Below are positions 32,710 through 62,065 of a DNA stretch of 64,000 nucleotides, piece after piece. The translations under genes were made by a program, and so were the position numbers. Within the stretch, counting starts at the first letter, position 1. Every line of letters begins with the position of its first letter. The DNA lies in the NCBI GenBank assembly GCA_013298715.1, contig JAAFIQ010000004.1, positions 62,001 to 126,000 on the forward strand, in the 5' to 3' direction. Under the pieces are notes generated by a model. The model did not search any database and was not told the DNA's origin. It saw only the letters and a program-made list of their open reading frames with translations. This stretch comes from Bacteroidota bacterium (GTDB lineage Bacteria > Bacteroidota > Bacteroidia > B-17B0 > Aurantibacillaceae).

Positions 32710-32739
32710 CAAAGGTAGTGATATTTTGGATTTGAGCAA
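32710..32739 (-). promoter_or_regulatory. Promoter of rpmI-rplT
   Basis: On the minus strand TTG (32739-32737), a 19-base spacer, TACCTTTG (32717-32710): an ideal Bacteroidota promoter. The start would be near 32703, giving a leader of about 15 bases to rpmI. It separates ribosomal protein expression from the signalling operon upstream. Confidence 0.72.
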
Positions 32740-32763
32740 ATATATTTTAATTAAAATCGAAAT

Positions 32764-33141
32764 TTATTGTGCCTTAAAGGTAAACGGTAAACTCACTAAT
32801 TCCGCATACTCTTCCCCTGCCTCTTGCATATCATCATCATTTTTATCGTAATGCCAGTTAATTGTAATGGATGCGCCTTTGTTTTCAGCAACTTCATCCA
32901 ACTTCATTAAAATATCCAAAATAATTTTTGAGGATGCTGTATTGAAATATTCTAGTTTAAAATCAAAGCTAAAATTATTGTTTGGTGCATTTCCAAAAGC
33001 TTCTAGCCAATCTATGGTTGGTTTGTAAAAAGTAACTACATCTTCTGGTAATGAGCGACCGCTGATTTCAAACGTGTTTGTAGTTTTATCAAGTATTATA
33101 CTTGGTGTATCTTCGGTTCCGTTAATTTTGTAAGTTTCCAT
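32764..33141 (-). CDS. SiaC family (DUF1987) regulatory phosphoprotein
   Basis: A 125-residue cytoplasmic protein: TEDTPSIILDKTTNTFEISGRSLPEDVVTFYKPTIDWLEAF, then FDFKLEYFNTASSKIILDIL, which is the DUF1987/SiaC pattern. SiaC of Pseudomonas is an anti-sigma-antagonist-like switch phosphorylated by SiaB and dephosphorylated by the PP2C enzyme SiaA; the Thr in the FNTASSK stretch is the likely phosphosite here by motif position (inference). It is the last gene of the eight-gene operon. No SiaD-type diguanylate cyclase is adjacent, so its output partner is unknown. Confidence 0.88.
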   Translation of the reverse strand: METYKINGTEDTPSIILDKTTNTFEISGRSLPEDVVTFYKPTIDWLEAFGNAPNNNFSFDFKLEYFNTASSKIILDILMKLDEVAENKGASITINWHYDKNDDDMQEAGEEYAELVSLPFTFKAQ

Positions 33142-33152
33142 GTTATATTGTA

Positions 33153-33707
33153 TTAATTATTTTCGCTTGTGTGTTTAGAAATTGTGCTTAAAAAAATGAA
33201 GTAGTATAAGTCATCCTTTATTAAATCGAATTGAAATTTAAGTTTGGATTCAGATTTACGAGCAATATCAACAAAACCCAATCCAGCACCGCCTGCCTCA
33301 GAAATTGTGGCGCTTAATCTTAAATCTCTGAATAGGAGCTTTAATCCATCTTTATCTTTGCTATTTATTAAGTTCAATTTTTCTTCTATTGCTGCAATTT
33401 TATTTTGTTGAATGGTGTTGCCACTTATTACAAAAAAATGCTCTTCGTCTTCGCCAATCATAAATACAGCGGTTTTAGCATCATCACTCGAAGAGGCTTG
33501 ATGTTTACAAATATTTTGTAAAACTTCTACCATTACGTTGTAAATTTTTTTCTTAATACCCGCCTCTACAGAATCTTTATCAAGATTACGTTCTGTCATG
33601 GCTAAAACACCTTTTGTTATCTCTTGTGTAAACTCTCCTTCATAAAGCATTATTAATTTATTGCTTTCCATGAGTTGGTGGAACTGGCGTATTGATGTAA
33701 CTTCCAT
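33153..33707 (-). CDS. SiaB family protein kinase (DUF6272), second copy
   Basis: A 184-residue protein. NVMVEVLQNICKHQASS is an N-box-like stretch (Glu, Asn, Lys-His) of a GHKL ATPase fold, and GGAGLGFVDIARKSESKLKFQF is the later Gly-rich block. It resembles SiaB, the kinase that phosphorylates SiaC. It lies 2 bases after the other SiaB copy and 11 bases before siaC. The two copies are clearly paralogous (matching MVE-LQNI-KH and G-LG-VDIA-KS blocks) but well diverged, so they may have different partners or act as a heterodimer. Confidence 0.82.
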   Translation of the reverse strand: MEVTSIRQFHQLMESNKLIMLYEGEFTQEITKGVLAMTERNLDKDSVEAGIKKKIYNVMVEVLQNICKHQASSSDDAKTAVFMIGEDEEHFFVISGNTIQQNKIAAIEEKLNLINSKDKDGLKLLFRDLRLSATISEAGGAGLGFVDIARKSESKLKFQFDLIKDDLYYFIFLSTISKHTSENN

Positions 33708-33709
33708 AA

Positions 33710-34249
33710 TTAATTATTGTTTATAAATGTTTTAAGGGCAAAATAGGTTTTATCATTTTCTTCAACAAACGAAAAGTCTAATTTGTTTCCTGATTTTTTT
33801 GCGATATCAACTATTCCTAAACTCGCACCAATTCCTTCATTCAAACTTCCTTCAACTAAAAGTCGTTTATGCAACTCCGAAATTTCTTCTTTGCTCATTA
33901 CATTAATTGCCTGAAGCTTGTTTTTTAATGCTTGTACTTTTTCGTTTTCAATTACATTACCACTATATACAACATATTTCCCTTCATACGAACCAATCAT
34001 AAAAATACTTTCATTAGCATGTTTATTTTTAGTGTTGTGTTTGCTAATATTTTGTAAACACTCCACCATAACATTGAAAACCTTTTTTTTCACTGCAATT
34101 TCTGCCACCTCGGTACTCAGCTTTTTTTCAGTAAGATTTAACAATGCTTTAATAGTTTCTTGTGAAATTTTGCCTCGGTAGCTAAACACAAAATTGTGTT
34201 CCCTCATTTTACCGCTTATCTCGGTTACAAATCCTAATTCCTTTTCCAT
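33710..34249 (-). CDS. SiaB family protein kinase (DUF6272), first copy
   Basis: A 179-residue paralogue of the next gene. NVMVECLQNISKHNTKNK is the N-box-like stretch and GIGASLGIVDIAKKSGNKLDF the Gly-rich block; EISGKMREHNFVFSYRGKISQETIKALLNLTEKKL is the N-terminal part common to the family. By analogy with SiaB it would phosphorylate the SiaC-like protein. It starts 3 bases after the phosphatase gene stops, giving a phosphatase-kinase-kinase-substrate gene order. There is no membrane segment. Confidence 0.82.
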   Translation of the reverse strand: MEKELGFVTEISGKMREHNFVFSYRGKISQETIKALLNLTEKKLSTEVAEIAVKKKVFNVMVECLQNISKHNTKNKHANESIFMIGSYEGKYVVYSGNVIENEKVQALKNKLQAINVMSKEEISELHKRLLVEGSLNEGIGASLGIVDIAKKSGNKLDFSFVEENDKTYFALKTFINNN

Positions 34250-34252
34250 TCA

Positions 34253-36808
34253 CTAAAATTTAATTCCAATTAATAATACATCATCCATCTGCTTGTAATT
34301 TCCTTTCCAGTTGTTAAACTCTTTCTCAAATTTATCCCCCATTTCTGTCATGTTTAATTCAAGATTTTCAACAATTGTACTTTTTACCCTCGAACTTAAA
34401 AATTTTTCTTTACCTAATGCACCTCCAAATTGATCTGGCAAGCCATCTGTATTTATAAAGATTGCATCGCCTGAATTTAGTTTTATAGTATAATTTGTAA
34501 ATGGTTTACGCGTTTTGTAATGCATACCTGCAATTGGGTATTTATCTCCTTTTAATTCTTCTAGCGCTTTATTTTTTACCAAGTAACAAGGGCGATGTGC
34601 GCCAGCATACTCTAAAACGTTGTTTTTTGTATCAATTACGCAAAGTGCTATATCCATTCCATCCTTTGCATCAGATTTACCGCTATCTTGTTTTAATGTA
34701 GCTTGAACTTGCGCATGCAGCTCATCCAAAATTTCACTGGCGCTTCGTGGTATACCATCGTTCATAATTTGATTAAGAGTAAAGTGCCCTATAAAACTCA
34801 TTAAGGCACCCGGAACGCCATGGCCTGTGCAATCTACCGAAGCAACCGTAATTTTATTGCCGTTTTTATGTATGTATGGGAAATCGCCACTCACCACATC
34901 TTTTGGTTTATAAAACATAAACGAGTTTTCAAAATAACCTTTTAATACAGCCTCTGTAGGCATTAACGAGCTTTGAATGCGGTAACTGTAATTTATACTT
35001 TCGGTAATTTTTTTATTTTTATCTAAAATAATTTCTTCTGATTTTTTTTGTAAGCTTACATTATGTGCTACAATTAAAATTGTTTCAAGTTCTTTGTTAT
35101 TATCAAATTCAGGTATTGCAGTAATTTTATAAAACTCAACCTCATCTACTTTTTTAATTTTAATTTCGGAACTAATTGGTGCTGGATTTAATCGGTTTAA
35201 TTCAATTATTTTTAAATATTCTTCCTTTAATTCTTTAGGAAGTAAATCGCCAGTTTTGATATTATAATTGCTTAACAAACTTGCCTTTAAGCCTGTAACC
35301 GATTCAATTACTGGGTTTACGTATTGTAAATTACAATCCAAGTCTACTCTACTTATTAAGTCAACTGAATTTTCAGATAAGGCTTGCATTTTTGCTCTTA
35401 CACGTTGCTCTTCTTCAGCTTTTCTCTCCTCAGTAATATCACGGCTATTCATCACCAAACCCTTAATTGTACTATCTTCTAACAAATTGGTGAGGGTTGA
35501 TTCTAGCCAAATAAGGCCTCCGTTTTGCTTAATATATCTGTACTGAAATTGTTTGGTTGTATTTGCTATTTTTTTAACTTCACTCAAAGCATTGATGAAA
35601 ATGGATTTATCTTCCTCAAAAATTTTTGATGTTTCGTTTATTCCAAGAAGCTCATTTGCATCATAACCTAATATTGATTTAACCGAAGGGCTTTTGTAAC
35701 GCACTTGTCCATCTGCTTCGTAGATAGTAATTATTTCTGACGCTTTTTCTAAAAGAATTTGTTGCCGCTTGTTTGCTTTATCAACCTCTTCAATTTTTTC
35801 GCTTAAAGCTGTTGCATTTTCAATGAGTTGACTGCGCTGAAATTCTAGCTCACTTGTCATTTTACGTGATTCATTTAACAATTTAAATGTTTCTTCGTTT
35901 ACAGAAATATTAAAAATTGTTCGCGCAATAATATCACTAATTGCGTGTAAAAAATCGCGATGTAGTTTGGGTACTTCATTTAAAAAAGCCAACTCTATAG
36001 CGCCATAAGCCTTTTGATTTGTAATTAGTGGTGAAATAAAAATAGCGCTTGGTTTTTTATCGCCTAATAAGCCAGATTTTATGGTTACATAATCGCCAGG
36101 TATTTCGGTTCTGTATATGCTATCTTTTTCTATAATTGATTGTCCAACCAATCCTTGACCATTTTTAAACGAATTGCTTAAATACTTTTTGCGTGAAAAC
36201 GCAAAACTATTTGTTAAATGAATTGTATCTTCATTACCTTCAACAAATTCTACCACATAAAAAGCCGCTTGAACGGCATTCAACTTCTTACAAAGAAAAA
36301 CAATTAGTTCATTTCCTAACTCAACAACCTTTGTATGCGTTCTTAGCATTGCCGAAACTTCGGCCGAACCGGTGCTTATCCATTTAGCTTCCTCTTCCTT
36401 TAAATCTGCTAACTGCAAATTAGCCCGCATTTGTGTAAGGGTTTGTCCGAGTTGATCATTCTCCTCAGCCACATAATCTATATTCAAATTTCCATTCCCA
36501 ATTTTTGAAACAAACTCTGTATTTTTTGAAATAATTTTTTCGTAGGTACTAATTTGTTGAGTAGCGGATTTAAAGTTTTTTTTGATTCGAATAGCTGAAA
36601 AGAGAGCGCCGATAAAAAGTATAAACGGTATAGAAAGAATAAAATAGCTTGATGTGTTTATGAACAAAAGTCCTTTAACACCTGAATAAACACTTATAAC
36701 AAAAAAATAATTAAATAATGCATATAGTGCAATAATTAAAAAACCTAGTAAAAAATAGTTTAGTATGTATAACAATAAATTAGGTGTATGTTTTGCAACT
36801 TTATTCAT
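34253..36808 (-). CDS. Membrane GAF-PAS-PAS-SpoIIE (PP2C) phosphatase, SiaA-like
   Basis: An 851-residue protein. Two or so N-terminal membrane helices (LLLYILNYFLLGFLIIALYAL, then SSYFILSIPFILFIGALFSA) have almost no periplasmic domain. Then come a HAMP-like helix (about 80-140), a GAF domain (about 165-310), coiled coil, two PAS domains (about 350-590) and a C-terminal SpoIIE-type PP2C domain (from about 610) with FYKPKDVVSGDF, VASVDCTGHGVPGALMSFIG (about 650) and KQMDDVLLIGIKF. The metal-binding Asp residues appear present. It should dephosphorylate the SiaC-like protein. It overlaps the GAF gene upstream by 8 bases. Confidence 0.9.
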   Translation of the reverse strand: MNKVAKHTPNLLLYILNYFLLGFLIIALYALFNYFFVISVYSGVKGLLFINTSSYFILSIPFILFIGALFSAIRIKKNFKSATQQISTYEKIISKNTEFVSKIGNGNLNIDYVAEENDQLGQTLTQMRANLQLADLKEEEAKWISTGSAEVSAMLRTHTKVVELGNELIVFLCKKLNAVQAAFYVVEFVEGNEDTIHLTNSFAFSRKKYLSNSFKNGQGLVGQSIIEKDSIYRTEIPGDYVTIKSGLLGDKKPSAIFISPLITNQKAYGAIELAFLNEVPKLHRDFLHAISDIIARTIFNISVNEETFKLLNESRKMTSELEFQRSQLIENATALSEKIEEVDKANKRQQILLEKASEIITIYEADGQVRYKSPSVKSILGYDANELLGINETSKIFEEDKSIFINALSEVKKIANTTKQFQYRYIKQNGGLIWLESTLTNLLEDSTIKGLVMNSRDITEERKAEEEQRVRAKMQALSENSVDLISRVDLDCNLQYVNPVIESVTGLKASLLSNYNIKTGDLLPKELKEEYLKIIELNRLNPAPISSEIKIKKVDEVEFYKITAIPEFDNNKELETILIVAHNVSLQKKSEEIILDKNKKITESINYSYRIQSSLMPTEAVLKGYFENSFMFYKPKDVVSGDFPYIHKNGNKITVASVDCTGHGVPGALMSFIGHFTLNQIMNDGIPRSASEILDELHAQVQATLKQDSGKSDAKDGMDIALCVIDTKNNVLEYAGAHRPCYLVKNKALEELKGDKYPIAGMHYKTRKPFTNYTIKLNSGDAIFINTDGLPDQFGGALGKEKFLSSRVKSTIVENLELNMTEMGDKFEKEFNNWKGNYKQMDDVLLIGIKF

Positions 36809-37235
36809 TTAGGCGTTTTAGCAAATCGTTATTAATAGAGTTAAAGAACGTAAGTGTTTCTTGATTAAAATCAAATCCTGCAAGCTCTATTACAGCGCTT
36901 ATTTTTTCATTTAAAGAAAATGGATGTATGTAAAGTACACTTGGTGTTTTTTTACCTAGCCCTGAAGTAATTTCTAAATATCCAGCAGGAACAGAATCAA
37001 TTAACATAGGTTTGTTATCTGCGGCAACTTGCCCAGTAAAACCATCACCTATTTTGATAGTAATATTTGGGAGTTCAGTTGTAGGCAATGCGTAACCAGC
37101 AACTGGTAAAAGTATATCATTTCTCAACTTAAATAAAATTCCTTGGCAGGCGTTTATTTGTTTACAGCAGTGCCATAAAAACCTTCGGTAGAATTCATTT
37201 GTATCTTTAATTGCTATGATTTCAGCTTCAGACAT
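36801..37235 (-). CDS. Stand-alone GAF domain protein
   Basis: A 144-residue cytoplasmic protein that is essentially one GAF domain: RFLWHCCKQINACQGILFKLRNDILLPVAGYALP, then GDGFTGQVAADNKPMLIDSVPAGYLEITSGLG and PSVLYIHPF. It shares the V/I-P-x-x-Y-x-x-I-x-SGL block with the GAF domains of the sensor and of the phosphatase in the same operon. It may bind the same ligand and act as a soluble sensor or adaptor. It overlaps the phosphatase start by 8 bases and follows cheB by 1 base. Confidence 0.82.
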   Translation of the reverse strand: MSEAEIIAIKDTNEFYRRFLWHCCKQINACQGILFKLRNDILLPVAGYALPTTELPNITIKIGDGFTGQVAADNKPMLIDSVPAGYLEITSGLGKKTPSVLYIHPFSLNEKISAVIELAGFDFNQETLTFFNSINNDLLKRLNE

Positions 37236-37236
37236 A

Positions 37237-37812
37237 TTAAACTTCTATTTTAATTGAATCATGTGAAAGAATGTACTCGATAATTTCATCAATATTTAAT
37301 TGCTTTATATCTGGCATTAAATGAATGGCAGCCTCGGGCATAGTTTTTATTGTTGCCTCAGCTGGACTTTGAGTAATAACCTTTGCTCCACGCTTTTTTG
37401 CCATATACAACCCCATTGCCCCATCTGAATTTGCACCAGAAAGTATAACTCCTAACATTTTTTCTTTAAAAATATAAGAGAAGGTATCAAACGCTACGTT
37501 TATGGAAGGCCTTGAAAAGGACACCATATCTGAGGTGGATAATGAAAAAATATTCCCAATGTCGGCCATTAAATGATAATTAGCGGGTGCAAGATAAACC
37601 CTGCCTTTTTGGATTTTTTCTTTGTCATCCGGTTCAATAATTTGTTTTGCTGATTTTAAGTTTAAAGCTTCAACAAACCCATGCCTTATATGCTTTAACC
37701 TATGGAGACACAATACTATAGGTGTGTTGTAACTTGCAGGTAATTTTGCCAACAGCTTTTGTATGAGTGGAAAACTTCCGGCAGATCCTCCTATAACTAT
37801 TATTTTATACAT
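37237..37812 (-). CDS. CheB-type methylesterase domain protein without receiver
   Basis: A 191-residue protein consisting only of the CheB methylesterase/amidase domain. IIVIGGSAGSFPLIQKLLAKL holds the nucleophile Ser (G-G-S-A-G), CLHRLKHIRHG the catalytic His region, and VILSGANSDGAMGLYMAKKRGAKVITQSPAEA the catalytic Asp block. It lacks the N-terminal receiver of classical CheB, so it cannot be controlled by CheA phosphorylation in the usual way. It presumably removes methyl groups added by the adjacent CheR. It starts 1 base after cheR stops. Confidence 0.9.
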   Translation of the reverse strand: MYKIIVIGGSAGSFPLIQKLLAKLPASYNTPIVLCLHRLKHIRHGFVEALNLKSAKQIIEPDDKEKIQKGRVYLAPANYHLMADIGNIFSLSTSDMVSFSRPSINVAFDTFSYIFKEKMLGVILSGANSDGAMGLYMAKKRGAKVITQSPAEATIKTMPEAAIHLMPDIKQLNIDEIIEYILSHDSIKIEV

Positions 37813-37813
37813 G

Positions 37814-38650
37814 CTAAGAGCCTAAAGTAGTAATTTTTTGGTAAATTTTTTCTTCGGCACTAATAGTTTTAAAATGGTTGGATGCAGCACACCAGGCAAT
37901 ACTCTCTTTAGAACCAATTGCTAAATAGGAACCGGAGAATAAACTTTGCTCAATAAGGCTTAACACTTTATTTTGGAGACTCATGTTAAAGTAAATCATT
38001 ACATTTCTACAAAGCACCAAATCAAATTTAGAGAAGGGTGTACCTATTACTAAATCATGTTTTCTAAAATGAACATTTCGTAGCAAATCCGGGTTCATTT
38101 TAACAACATCTACGCTAAAATGATTGTAATATTTTTTAAAGTCAACGCCTCCCAAAAACCTATTATAATTTTGGGTATTCAACTCCATATTTCTGTTTAA
38201 GTAAAGACCACTTTTAGCTTTCTCAATTACTTCATCGTTTATATCTGTTGCTATAATTGAATAGTTAGAAATACCCATTTCGTTTAACAAAATTGCCATG
38301 GTGTAAACTTCTTCACCACTACTGCATGCTGCATGCCAAATACGAATGGTACTGAGTTTCGCTAATTCAGGTAGAATATCTTCACGTAATTTGCGCCAAA
38401 AGCTAGGGTCGCGAAACATTTCGGTAGTGTTTACTGTAATTTCGCGAACGAGCTCCTCAGTAAAATTTTTATCTGATTTTATTTTAACAATCAACTCAGC
38501 ATTGCTGCCTATTCTGAAAATTTCTTTTGCCCGCGATATACGTCGCATAAACGAAGTGGTTGCATACTCGCTAAAATCGTAGTTCCAAGATGATTTTAGT
38601 ACACCTGAAATTTCTTTGATTGCATTTAAATCTATATCTTCTGCAATCAT
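37814..38650 (-). CDS. CheR-type protein-glutamate methyltransferase
   Basis: A 278-residue complete CheR. The N-terminal helical domain holds YDFSEYATTSFMRRISRAKEIF, and EITVNTTEMFRDPSFWRKLRE is the typical link. The SAM-binding motif is IWHAACSSGEEVYTMAILL (about residue 105); IIATDINDEVIEKAKSGLY and LVLCRNVMIYFN complete the Rossmann site. It methylates Glu side chains of receptors using SAM. The start overlaps the sensor gene by 4 bases (ATGA-type), so translation is coupled; the sensor is the obvious substrate candidate. Confidence 0.93.
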   Translation of the reverse strand: MIAEDIDLNAIKEISGVLKSSWNYDFSEYATTSFMRRISRAKEIFRIGSNAELIVKIKSDKNFTEELVREITVNTTEMFRDPSFWRKLREDILPELAKLSTIRIWHAACSSGEEVYTMAILLNEMGISNYSIIATDINDEVIEKAKSGLYLNRNMELNTQNYNRFLGGVDFKKYYNHFSVDVVKMNPDLLRNVHFRKHDLVIGTPFSKFDLVLCRNVMIYFNMSLQNKVLSLIEQSLFSGSYLAIGSKESIAWCAASNHFKTISAEEKIYQKITTLGS

Positions 38651-40827
38651 GCGCCTTTAAGTTTAGCAATTTCGGCAATATAGCCTTGTTCTTTTTTAGA
38701 AAATTCTTCTTCGAGCGCTTCGATTTTTGAGAACTTTTCGGAATTTGAAATCTCTAATAATTTTTGTTTTGTAATATCCTTTGCAAGTTTAATTACTTTA
38801 ACAACATTTTTATTCTCATCAAATACTGGTGCGTAAGAGGCTTCTAACCAAACAATATGACCATTTTTTGTAACACGCTCGTATTGATTTACTAGAGTTT
38901 CTCCGCTTTTTAAACTTTTCCAAAAGTTAATATAGGCAATAGAACTGGCATACTCCTTAGTAGCGAATATTCTATGGTGTTTACCTAAAATCTCCTCTTT
39001 AGAATCATACTCCATGGTACGACAAAATATATCGTTCGCATTTAGTATTAAACCTTCAGGGGTAAAATCAATAAAGGCATAAGATGTATCAATGGCATTA
39101 AATTGAGCTTTCATTTCTGATTCTGATTTCCTGAAACGATTTGCTAGGCGCTCTTGTTCTTCTTGCGTAGCGTGCAACTCTTCCATATTTTGCCGCATTT
39201 CTTCTTCTTGTGCACGCATTTCTTCTGCTTGTTGTTGTGTTTGATGTAGTAATAAAGTTGTTCTTATGTTTACCCTAATTGTTGTAACTGTTGAAGCAAT
39301 TGACTCAGCAATTTTTTTAAGGAAGTCAACCTCATACTCTTCAAAAACCTTAAAGGAAGCAATTTCTAATACACCATTTGTTAAATCATTTATTTTAAGC
39401 GGTACAAGAATTATGCAATTTGGCGTTGCTTCTCCCAAACCTGAGGTAATAGTAGTGTATTTATCTGGTACATCTGTCATATAAATAATATCGTTCTCAA
39501 TAAAACACTGTCCAGCCAAACCTTCGCCTAATAAAATTTTCTTAGTTAAAAACTTCTTCTTGTCGTAAGCGTAACAGGCTTTTAATTCTAAAAATTGTTC
39601 TGACTTATTATCATCGTTCAATAAAAACAACGAGGCTTGGTTTGCCTTGGTGTATTTGGTTACAAAACTTACTATATTGTCGAACAACTCTTGTTCATTG
39701 TTGCTATTATAGTTGCTTCTCAAAGTTTCACTAATTTGTGCCAAACCGGCAATTGCCCAGTTACGTCGTTTATCCTCGTCGGCCACCTTTTTAAGGCTGT
39801 CGCGCATACTATTTAAGGAGGTTCCTAAAGCACCCTTACCCTCAAAAACAGTTACGTCAGAATCGAACTTTCCTTCACCAACTTCGTCAGCAAAATTCTT
39901 AACCATGTTAAGATTTGAAGTAAGGTTGTTTAAAGAATTGACGATTTGCCCAATCTCATCACTACTTGAATTTTGTTTAATATTAGGTAAATCTCCAGAT
40001 GAGAGCGTATCTAAAAACTCTTTTGTTTCAATTACTGGGCGCTGAATTCGTTTAGCAATTAGTAAGCTTAGTAGAGTAGTAAAAATAATAGAGAGAATAA
40101 TTAAACTAATAAGAATTATTCGGCTATTTTTTGCTGCGGCCTCTGAATTTTGTTGTTCATCTGCTGTAGCTTCTAAGATAAGCTTACTCAGCTCTCCATT
40201 CTCAGTTACTAACGATTCAAATAGTGAATAAAATAATTTCATTTTGTCTGAAAATTGTTCGTTAATTATTTTTTCACAATACTCGTTTATATGTTCGTAA
40301 TTATATTTTTCTTCAGCTAAAAGCTTAACTGACAATGAATCAGTAAACATGCTTAACTTGGCAATTTTATTTGTTAGTTCTACCTCAGATGCCTTTAAAA
40401 GACTATCACCAGAGCGTTTAAAATGAATTATTTCCTTGGCGAAATTTATGTAATCATTCAGCATAGGTTTAACTCTATTTAATTGCTCTCGTTTCTTTTG
40501 ATCTAAATCGAGTTTTTCCATCTCGCTTATATCAGTTAAAAATTGATTTTGGTGTTCGGTAAAATCAGAAAATACTGTATTTAACTCTTCTGTTTCTTTA
40601 AAGTTTTTTAATTGAGATAATAATACATCCGCCCTGATGGCATCGTGCATCATATCTCCATCCTGAAAATAATACAAGGCCTTTTGATTTGTAACAATTT
40701 TGTAGGTTATAGCCTGCTGATTATTTAAGATTAAATAAAACAATACACCTAAAACAACTAAAAAAACGAGGCTGATAATAGCAATCAAGAGCAATTTTTG
40801 CTGTAATTTTAAATTTCGAAAATTCAT
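38647..40827 (-). CDS. Membrane sensor with HAMP, GAF and PAS domains (no kinase domain)
   Basis: A 726-residue protein from the ATG at 40827 (MNFRNLKLQQ); an upstream in-frame ATG at 40887 adds a poorly fitting leader. Order: membrane helix (LLLIAIISLVFLVVLGVLFYLIL), a periplasmic helical sensor region of about 200 residues, a second helix (IILISLIILSIIFTTLLSLLIA), HAMP (about 265-320), GAF (about 375-530), a Gln/Glu-rich coiled coil with repeated EEMR units, PAS with WLEASYAPVFDENKNVVKVIKLAKDITKQK (about 580-695) and a final helix. There is no histidine kinase or methyl-accepting chemotaxis signalling tip. It heads the eight-gene operon and is probably its input and the CheR/CheB target. 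Confidence 0.88.
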   Translation of the reverse strand: MNFRNLKLQQKLLLIAIISLVFLVVLGVLFYLILNNQQAITYKIVTNQKALYYFQDGDMMHDAIRADVLLSQLKNFKETEELNTVFSDFTEHQNQFLTDISEMEKLDLDQKKREQLNRVKPMLNDYINFAKEIIHFKRSGDSLLKASEVELTNKIAKLSMFTDSLSVKLLAEEKYNYEHINEYCEKIINEQFSDKMKLFYSLFESLVTENGELSKLILEATADEQQNSEAAAKNSRIILISLIILSIIFTTLLSLLIAKRIQRPVIETKEFLDTLSSGDLPNIKQNSSSDEIGQIVNSLNNLTSNLNMVKNFADEVGEGKFDSDVTVFEGKGALGTSLNSMRDSLKKVADEDKRRNWAIAGLAQISETLRSNYNSNNEQELFDNIVSFVTKYTKANQASLFLLNDDNKSEQFLELKACYAYDKKKFLTKKILLGEGLAGQCFIENDIIYMTDVPDKYTTITSGLGEATPNCIILVPLKINDLTNGVLEIASFKVFEEYEVDFLKKIAESIASTVTTIRVNIRTTLLLHQTQQQAEEMRAQEEEMRQNMEELHATQEEQERLANRFRKSESEMKAQFNAIDTSYAFIDFTPEGLILNANDIFCRTMEYDSKEEILGKHHRIFATKEYASSIAYINFWKSLKSGETLVNQYERVTKNGHIVWLEASYAPVFDENKNVVKVIKLAKDITKQKLLEISNSEKFSKIEALEEEFSKKEQGYIAEIAKLKGA

Positions 40828-41021
40828 AAAATAGTTTGAGTCATAAAAATAAAACAAATTGGTTGAAGTTACAATAGAGTAAAACACCTATACAAAAAAA
40901 TCAACATCGAATTTTAAACAAATACAGATTGGTTAGCTCTTCCAATGCTAATTGAGTAGCATCTTGTGTATCTAAAAAAATTTAAATTAATAACTTGATA
41001 GTAATAATTTAAACTGTATTC

Positions 41022-60901: not shown

Positions 60902-62065
60902 ATGGAAGTACTGGATAGTATTCAAGAACAAATTTTAAATAAAATAAATGCCTTAGTTGTAGTTTTAAATAAAAACGGCGAGGCAGATTATGTTAATAGG
61001 CAAGCCACCAAACTATTTGGTTATAGCCAAAATGAATTACTGGGTGAAAATTGGTTTAAGATAACAAGATTTAACTCGGCTGAAGGGCAAGCAATTAAAC
61101 AGAAATTAATGGCAATGTTTATTAATAAAGAAATTGGCGATACCGTTTTTGAACATGAATTTAAAACACAAGCTGGTGCAAAAAAATGGATTAAGTGGAA
61201 CATCTCCTTTTTGAACGACAATCAAATAATTTCAATTGGCACCGATGTAACCGATAAAAAAAATACCGAAGAAAAACTTTTGGTTACCAACGCGAACCTA
61301 ATTGACTTAAATAAATCATTGGTTGATAGTATCACCTATGCCAAAAGAATTCAACATTCTATTTTACAATCTTATGATTACATAAAAACAATTTTTAATA
61401 ACCATTTTGTTTTTTATAAACCAAAAGACATTGTTAGTGGAGATTTTTATTTTTTCTACCAAAACGACGATTATAAATATGTAATTGTTGCAGACTGCAC
61501 GGGACATGGAGTTCCAGGAGCAATGATGAGCATGTTGGCCAATGGCATTTTAAAAGAAGTGTTACAAAATAAACGGATTGTTTCACCTGCGCAAATATTA
61601 TATGAAGTTGATAAGGAACTACAACACACAATTAATCAATATACCAATCAACAAAACTCTGATGGTATGGATATGGCTGTTGTAGCGGTGAGTAAACGAA
61701 ATAACCGTTTGCACTATGCGGGAGCATTTAATTCTGCCATACTTATTAAGGACAATAAAATAAAGGAACTCAAAGCAAGTAAATTTCCTATAGGATTTTT
61801 TCACGATACAAATAAGGTATTTGAAGAGCAAGTTATTTTACTAAACCCAAACGATCAATTGTTTTTATTTAGCGATGGTTATGCCGATCAATTTGGTGGT
61901 GATAGAAACAAAAAAATGAACAATAAAATTTTTAAAGAAATTTTATTAGCAGCCAAGGAGCTTGATATATCAGAACAAAAAGCATTTATTGAATACAATT
62001 TTAATAATTGGAAACAACAAGAACCTCAGACAGATGATGTTGTAGTTGTTGGGATAAAGTTGTAA
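60902..62065 (+). CDS. PAS-SpoIIE (PP2C) serine phosphatase, soluble
   Basis: A 387-residue cytoplasmic protein: an N-terminal PAS domain (about 5-120: ALVVVLNKNGEADYVNRQATKLFGYSQNELLGENWF ... IGTDVTDKK), a short coiled coil, then a SpoIIE-type PP2C domain with FYKPKDIVSGDFYFFYQ, VIVADCTGHGVPGAMMSMLANG and QTDDVVVVGIKL. The metal-binding Asp residues are present. It is closely similar in its catalytic half to the phosphatase at 34253-36808 and may act on the same or a sister switch protein. It stands alone, with no kinase or substrate gene next to it. Confidence 0.92.
   Translation: MEVLDSIQEQILNKINALVVVLNKNGEADYVNRQATKLFGYSQNELLGENWFKITRFNSAEGQAIKQKLMAMFINKEIGDTVFEHEFKTQAGAKKWIKWNISFLNDNQIISIGTDVTDKKNTEEKLLVTNANLIDLNKSLVDSITYAKRIQHSILQSYDYIKTIFNNHFVFYKPKDIVSGDFYFFYQNDDYKYVIVADCTGHGVPGAMMSMLANGILKEVLQNKRIVSPAQILYEVDKELQHTINQYTNQQNSDGMDMAVVAVSKRNNRLHYAGAFNSAILIKDNKIKELKASKFPIGFFHDTNKVFEEQVILLNPNDQLFLFSDGYADQFGGDRNKKMNNKIFKEILLAAKELDISEQKAFIEYNFNNWKQQEPQTDDVVVVGIKL

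Follow-up and report, generated by a model that had tools for sequence, protein, structure and literature searches.

In the genome of a Bacteroidota bacterium (assembly GCA_013298715.1), the methylation enzymes of chemotaxis, CheR and CheB, are encoded in one operon with a SiaABC-type switch of phosphatase, kinase and substrate. Which protein do these enzymes modify, and what does the switch control? We analysed this operon in a window of 64,000 nucleotides (contig JAAFIQ010000004.1, positions 62,001 to 126,000 of the forward strand). It consisted of eight minus-strand genes (40827-32764) separated by gaps or overlaps of −4, 1, 1, −8, 3, 2 and 11 bases, as a first-pass annotation of the sequence had described. 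That annotation had further proposed that methylation of the sensor, or of the phosphatase, sets the phosphorylation state of SiaC. Our analysis confirmed the operon, showed that the gene set is conserved and found a precedent for methylation acting on a PP2C switch in RsbM/RsbK/RsbY (PMC4574943); the statement that the output is unknown had to be changed. We likewise infer that methylation sets SiaC phosphorylation. By a narrow preference, we read the operon as a CheA-independent module, in which the adaptation half of chemotaxis would tune a SiaABC switch that acts on an ATP-binding cassette (ABC) transporter. The parts of the operon are as follows.

38647..40827, minus strand: sensor of 726 residues with a transmembrane segment (by hydropathy count), a 4HB_MCP_1-like N-terminus, HAMP, GAF, a Glu-rich helix and PAS (Pfam).
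39145..39255, minus strand: S-helix of the sensor (residues 525-561), the proposed site of methylation, with Glu-Glu (EE) pairs at four successive heptads (read from the sequence; methylation predicted).
37814..38650, minus strand: CheR methyltransferase of 278 residues, motifs TTEMFR and SSGEE (Pfam, 147 bits).
37237..37812, minus strand: CheB methylesterase of 191 residues without a receiver, with S10, H37 and D130 (Pfam, 141 bits).
36801..37235, minus strand: single-domain GAF protein of 144 residues, below the Pfam cut-off; a family model built here found it in relatives, and the sensor GAF matches this protein.
34253..36808, minus strand: transmembrane-GAF-PAS-SpoIIE/PP2C phosphatase of 851 residues, in the SiaA role (Pfam SpoIIE, 71 bits).
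33710..34249, minus strand: SiaB-family kinase a of 179 residues, motif VECLQN (NCBIfam; Pfam DUF6272, 123 and 115 bits for the two copies).
33153..33707, minus strand: SiaB-family kinase b of 184 residues, motif VEVLQN (same models).
32764..33141, minus strand: SiaC phosphoprotein of 125 residues (Pfam SiaC, 140 bits).
32938..32940, minus strand: codon of SiaC Thr68, which aligns with the phosphorylated T68 of Pseudomonas aeruginosa SiaC.

Pfam and NCBIfam largely agreed with the domains assigned in the first pass. Two GAF assignments, those of the lone GAF protein and of the SpoIIE protein, scored below the Pfam cut-off, and Pfam found one PAS domain in the SpoIIE protein, not the second one assigned earlier; its paralogue contained two PAS stretches. 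Our own family model recovered the lone GAF family in relatives. The 4HB_MCP_1 match of the sensor barely exceeded the Pfam cut-off (27.3 vs 27.0), and the start codon of this gene is ambiguous (GTG at 40887 or ATG at 40827). CheB S10, H37 and D130, the catalytic triad, were invariant in 11 of 11 aligned sequences, and the Asp motifs of the SpoIIE domain (SGDF, DCTGHG, TDG and MDD) were present.

The switch proteins were compared with their characterized relatives. In P. aeruginosa, SiaC T68 is phosphorylated by SiaB and dephosphorylated by SiaA (PMC7647112), and SiaC that is phosphorylated there is prevented from binding the helical stalk of SiaD (PMC8457831). Both DUF6272 proteins of the window passed the NCBIfam subfamily model for SiaB-family kinases (142.5 and 140.4 bits; cut-off 85). 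They missed the SiaB equivalog cut-off of 225 (60 and 66.6 bits), and the window SiaC missed its equivalog cut-off of 150 (90 bits). Both SiaBs retained the N-box E..QN and matched the longer pattern E..QN...H, as did 30 of the 42 SiaB proteins of the fetched loci. NT[AS]S at the Thr68 position was found in the window SiaC and in 37 of 43 SiaC proteins. The 12 SiaB and 6 SiaC proteins that lack these motifs fit the proposed switch less well. Tandem SiaB-SiaB proteins of 380 residues, found in loci L107 and L111, parallel the two adjacent window genes and suggest that both SiaB proteins act together.

To which system, then, do CheR and CheB belong? The genome (4.01 Mb, 46 contigs, estimated 99.99% complete) was searched for domains at E 0.001. 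It gave no match to CheW, MCPsignal or GGDEF; the same searches gave matches in 7, 7 and 8 of 14 control genomes, respectively. The genome held two CheR genes and a single CheB, the window copy. The annotation had named a distant chemotaxis array, served by CheR and CheB, as an alternative. Because CheW and MCPsignal are not found and the window CheB is the sole one, such an array is a very unlikely partner. Nothing in the genome favours it, the missing sequence would have to hold the array whole, and we give this explanation next to no weight. A second alternative is that the target of SiaC is a diguanylate cyclase, as in Pseudomonas. The SiaABC parts and the conserved T68 are consistent with it, but a SiaD-type cyclase is not likely as a partner because GGDEF was not found; a GGDEF-type enzyme is refuted unless its gene lies in the missing sequence, and we consider this alternative highly improbable.

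The second CheR gene was located on contig C3, in a set composed of SiaC, a 4HB-HAMP-GAF sensor, CheR, GAF and a GAF-PAS-PAS-SpoIIE protein. Its sensor, CheR, GAF and SpoIIE proteins were 37, 41, 38 and 52% identical to those of the window, and neither CheB nor SiaB was found in the set. Beyond it, after 228 bases, come genes for a histidine kinase and a LuxR-type regulator. Both CheR genes of the genome therefore adjoin genes for a sensor, GAF, SpoIIE and SiaC in operons. In total, the genome gave 12 SiaC, 9 DUF6272 and 37 SpoIIE matches (two of the last within one frame), so that the window operon is one among many Sia-type sets, of which two include CheR; several other Sia loci lack it. Elsewhere, a SiaC-SpoIIE pair was seen on contig C2 (L266:7436-11568), and the window encodes another SpoIIE protein, of 387 residues, outside the operon (60902-62065, plus strand).

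The first-pass annotation had proposed to look for the gene set in other Bacteroidota, and it proved to be conserved. CheB was found in 97 of 296 genomes of the class. We fetched 80 regions by open-frame length; they comprised stand-alone CheB, CheB fusions of about 608 residues, four CheB-CheR fusions from the window's genus, pieces at contig ends and two filler stretches. Counting CheB genes that were shorter than 260 residues or fused to SpoIIE gave 75, including the window copy and two contig-end pieces of one genome. Within 8 kb of these, CheR was present at 71, SpoIIE at 32, SiaB or SiaC at 23, and both SpoIIE and a Sia protein at 22. As a control, we used 40 regions around receiver-bearing CheB or CheB-CheR fusions, one of which was dropped for want of a CheB frame. 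The remaining 39 contained SpoIIE in no case and SiaC in one (Fisher p 1e-7 for SpoIIE, 32/75 vs 0/39, and 2e-4 for SiaB or SiaC, 23/75 vs 1/39, both uncorrected for kinship). The Sia-linked CheB loci spanned 11 families.

A tree built from 100 CheB domains placed all 23 Sia-linked CheBs inside one group of 32, with a Shimodaira-Hasegawa-like approximate likelihood ratio test (SH-aLRT) value of 99; this was a quick search without bootstrap, and its root is not known. The nine other members were three SpoIIE-only loci, L073, L076 and L084 without SpoIIE or Sia proteins, L094 and L113 near contig ends, and L112. Kinase-linked CheBs, such as those of L057, L060, L072 and L074, lay outside this group. 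CheB-SpoIIE fusions formed a separate group of four (SH-aLRT 100). These 608-residue proteins are encoded in L122, L123, L124 and L125, each beside CheR, and a contig-end fragment of such a fusion occurs in L126. They are a second, independent joining of methylesterase and phosphatase, in a single chain. CheW was not found in 52 of the 56 searched genomes with a stand-alone or SpoIIE-fused CheB. It was present in G105, G168, G195 and G221, the last three of which carry Sia-linked loci, so that CheR and CheB could serve an array there as well.

A second set of loci came from named relatives. Genome contigs were scanned with an 11-row CheB alignment (Sia- or SpoIIE-linked rows, no neighbour information), and the best 80 of at least 554 matches were taken. 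One locus without a CheB frame (L216) was dropped, leaving 79, several of them clipped by contig ends. Many were from Cytophagales; cultured members included Ohtaekwangia koreensis DSM 25262, whose locus (L242) is complete, Chryseolinea lacunae, Pseudochryseolinea flava and Xanthocytophaga flavus. Using family models built by iteration from this genome's proteins, we found CheR at 77 loci, SpoIIE at 69, SiaB at 66, SiaC at 64, the ABC transporter at 63, a lipoprotein at 58 and a small secreted protein at 49. Leaving out six contigs shared by both locus sets (n = 73) gave 71, 63, 60, 59, 59, 54 and 45, and the conclusions were unchanged. The same-strand order CheR-CheB-GAF-SpoIIE-SiaB-SiaC was unbroken in 54 of the 79; the ABC gene came next in 47, followed by the lipoprotein gene in 46. 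Median gaps from CheR to the small protein were 1-87 bases. The relatives are not independent samples, and kinship inflates all of these counts, which tempers their support for our reading. These results indicated that the window operon belongs to a conserved Bacteroidota module.

Scans of the window for Bacteroidota-type promoter motifs and sigma-70 promoters gave matches no more frequent than chance, and terminator-like sites numbered 8 vs 5.3 expected; the transcription unit therefore rests on the gaps and the conserved gene order. Downstream of the operon, on the same strand, lie rpmI (read by eye) and rplT (Pfam). The sequence TTTG-N19-TACCTTTG at 32710-32740 (minus strand), 5' of rpmI, resembles the Bacteroidota promoter consensus, although matches of this kind are no commoner in the window than chance predicts.

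Where could the methyl groups go? Glu pairs at heptad spacing on the helix after the sensor GAF are the probable methylation sites, as judged from their pattern. Three or more EE, EQ or QE heptads occurred in 39 of 368 proteins longer than 250 residues encoded near CheB on the same strand vs 3 of 378 others, after five CheB-CheR fusions had been removed. The three were the C3 sensor beside CheR, a sensor of L071 and a SpoIIE protein of L120; some of the 39 are kinase-type proteins that lie outside the Sia group. For Sia loci, heptads were tallied in anchorable helices only, with duplicates removed and proteins without an anchor left out. EE stood at heptads 3, 4 and 5 in 26, 24 and 22 of 29 sensors; of 70 SpoIIE proteins, 53 had it at heptad 4 and 51 at heptad 5. 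SpoIIE proteins averaged 2.1 EE where the locus had no EE sensor (n = 49) and 1.6 where it had one (n = 22), a slight difference. The helix of the window SpoIIE protein has one EE pair left, so that the sensor is the better candidate in the window. The sensor, the SpoIIE protein and the lone GAF protein share a homologous GAF.

These helices also bear on a different explanation, in which CheR and CheB are general modifiers of EE-helix proteins (PAS proteins, hybrid kinases and sensors), placed in the operon for co-expression, and the SiaABC switch works free of methylation. A third EE-helix sensor, of HAMP-GAF type, was found on contig C25 (L262:8140-9780, minus strand) and an EE-bearing PAS protein on contig C40 (L264:2666-3691, minus strand), both with no CheR in the stretch read. 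EE coils also occur in CheB-CheR fusions; the EE motif is thus not exclusive. Large GAF proteins with EE helices, some with kinase domains, stand beside stand-alone CheR-CheB pairs, and the CheR-free Sia loci of this genome fit this explanation too. An EE protein was present in just 34 of the 79 named loci and a separate GAF sensor in just 32, which, like the lack of exclusivity, counts against our main reading. General modification is improbable in our judgement, given that Sia-linked CheBs cluster apart from kinase-linked ones, that CheB-SpoIIE fusions exist and that SpoIIE is absent from the control CheB loci. As for the two proteins themselves, the C25 sensor gene is convergent with that of a 1271-residue SpoIIE protein (L262:4305-8120, plus strand), and the C40 protein, encoded close to the end of its contig, has PAS-type repeats in tandem whose EE coil segments are identical.

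Finally, we asked what SiaC acts on. The ABC protein whose gene follows siaC in most of the named relatives has about 1030 residues, in which an ATPase and an ABC-2 membrane part are joined to an N-terminal region. This genome encodes two copies. The copy on contig C4 comes directly after a SiaB-SiaB-SiaC trio that is 51, 61 and 64% identical, in order, to that of the window, and the copy on C3 lies near the second CheR operon. Pfam detected an N-terminal TerB domain in the C3 copy but not in the C4 copy. Over 59 sequences, the first 25 residues of the ABC protein had a mean conservation of 0.90; the best ATPase blocks reached 0.91-0.96. In G039 and G107, which belong to the window's genus, a SiaC fusion of 374-377 residues joins a homologue of the ABC N-terminus to a SiaC domain. 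Its gene sits just upstream of the ABC gene (L174:6828-7952 and L179:6797-7930, on the same contigs as L050 and L051). By phmmer, the fusion N-terminus matched the ABC N-terminus at E 4e-16 (L077 copy) and at 2e-7 and 3e-5 (the copies of this genome). A structural model of the fusion had a predicted local distance difference test (pLDDT) score of 85 and matched eight PDB chains at E 0.001 or better, all of them P. aeruginosa SiaC chains aligned over about 125 columns; its N-terminal part was helical, then beta. A likeness of the beta part to the FHA domain was considered and found no support in any of the 50 matches listed. The lipoprotein, of about 300 residues, gave a mostly helical model (pLDDT 80) that matched no PDB chain at E 0.001 or better, and three copies scanned had no Pfam match. 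Conserved neighbourhood and natural fusion together point to the ABC transporter as the likely output, where the first-pass annotation had left the output unknown. Along the same line, the authors of PMC8457831 suggest that DUF1987 proteins act on adjacent proteins; nothing relevant to the transporter appeared among the papers listed in our literature search.

The transporter was searched for in 44 genomes at E 1e-100 and found in 28, namely in 17 of 19 genomes with a Sia-linked CheB vs 11 of 25 others (lineage uncontrolled). The 11 comprised 7 of 7 genomes whose CheB has SpoIIE nearby or fused to it and no Sia protein alongside, and 4 of 18 with neither. The remaining alternative is that CheR and CheB do tune the SpoIIE-SiaB-SiaC switch, but that SiaC targets a kinase, a transcription regulator or another SiaB, the transporter being a co-regulated neighbour. 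In the window genome, the transporter is encoded outside the operon, and the histidine kinase and LuxR-type regulator beyond the second CheR operon offer other targets. Two f62 genomes have a Sia-type locus and no such ABC match, three f41 genomes give just a 34-35% match that lacks the first 87 or more residues, and the four genomes noted above have a transporter with neither Sia proteins nor SpoIIE beside CheB. The many SiaC, DUF6272 and SpoIIE matches of the genome may also mean many partners. These points pull against the transporter as target. On the other hand, ABC genes occur at 63 of the 79 named loci, in 47 of them directly after siaC in conserved order, and two genomes fuse SiaC to the ABC N-terminus homologue. 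We therefore regard another target as rather unlikely, although it is the strongest of the alternatives.

The transporter reading suggests the following mechanism. A signal would be sensed by the membrane sensor, and perhaps also by the homologous GAF region of the SpoIIE protein. CheR would methylate, and CheB demethylate, the Glu pairs on the helix after the GAF, providing gain or memory of the signal, and the methylation state of this helix would control the PP2C phosphatase. The SiaB pair would add phosphate to SiaC Thr68 and the phosphatase would remove it; unphosphorylated SiaC could then bind the N-terminal region of the 1030-residue ABC transporter. The transporter may work with the lipoprotein and the small secreted protein, whose genes follow siaC in most named relatives; in the window genome, the transporter genes follow the duplicated siaB-siaB-siaC on C4, and C3 carries a second set next to its CheR operon. 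What was observed directly is the gene set with its order and conservation, the motifs, the fusions and the lack of CheW, MCP and GGDEF matches. We infer the methylation target, the direction of each effect, the binding of SiaC to the transporter and the transported substrate. The full chain, in which a CheR and CheB methylation memory without CheA gates the transporter post-translationally through docking of unphosphorylated SiaC on its N-terminal region, is put forward tentatively, at slightly less than an even chance.

How does this module compare with known systems? RsbM is a CheR-type methyltransferase. The nearest known mechanism is RsbM-RsbK-RsbY of Bacillus cereus. There, RsbM places methyl groups on the S-helix of RsbK, a HAMP-GAF hybrid kinase that signals via RsbY to the RsbV/RsbW switch (PMC4574943). 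In that paper, RsbM is called an orphan without a cognate methylesterase, and RsbK-like kinases are cited in 10 phyla. As in B. cereus, a methyltransferase gene in the window operon adjoins that of a HAMP-GAF-S-helix sensor carrying Glu pairs, and sensor S-helix methylation, which there controls the PP2C of a partner switch, would do so here as well. The B. cereus sensor is a hybrid histidine kinase and its PP2C has a receiver, whereas Pfam shows neither in the window operon; its output is sigma-B, whereas the window operon has CheB, a SiaB/SiaC switch and a likely transporter output. With SiaABCD of P. aeruginosa (PMC7647112, PMC8457831), the operon shares the SpoIIE/PP2C phosphatase, the SiaB kinase and SiaC Thr68 in one operon; it differs in that the genome has no SiaD/GGDEF match and in a second SiaB, CheR/CheB, a sensor and a lone GAF protein.

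Canonical chemosensory systems combine CheR and CheB with a 4HB-HAMP sensor whose Glu pairs recur at regular intervals. The window operon has all of these, but the genome has no CheW or MCP signalling domain, the operon has no CheY, and its CheB lacks a receiver. Bacteroidota stand-alone CheR-CheB pairs beside large GAF or hybrid-kinase proteins are alike in the enzymes and the EE helix; the neighbour there is kinase-type. The parts and the principle are thus known. A description of this gene set, with a matched CheR/CheB pair on a SiaB/SiaC switch and a linked transporter, was not found in the literature searched, which was mostly open-access papers and did not cover preprints.

If the reading holds, receptor methylation, known mainly as chemotaxis adaptation, would be coupled, through a matching writer and eraser, to a Ser/Thr-type phosphorylation switch, and SiaC proteins would gain a target outside cyclic di-GMP signalling. 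It offers testable roles for DUF6272-only and SiaC-family proteins and for the lipoprotein of about 300 residues. Cytophagales and other Bacteroidota would then control export or the remodelling of the envelope adaptively, in a chemotaxis-like manner.

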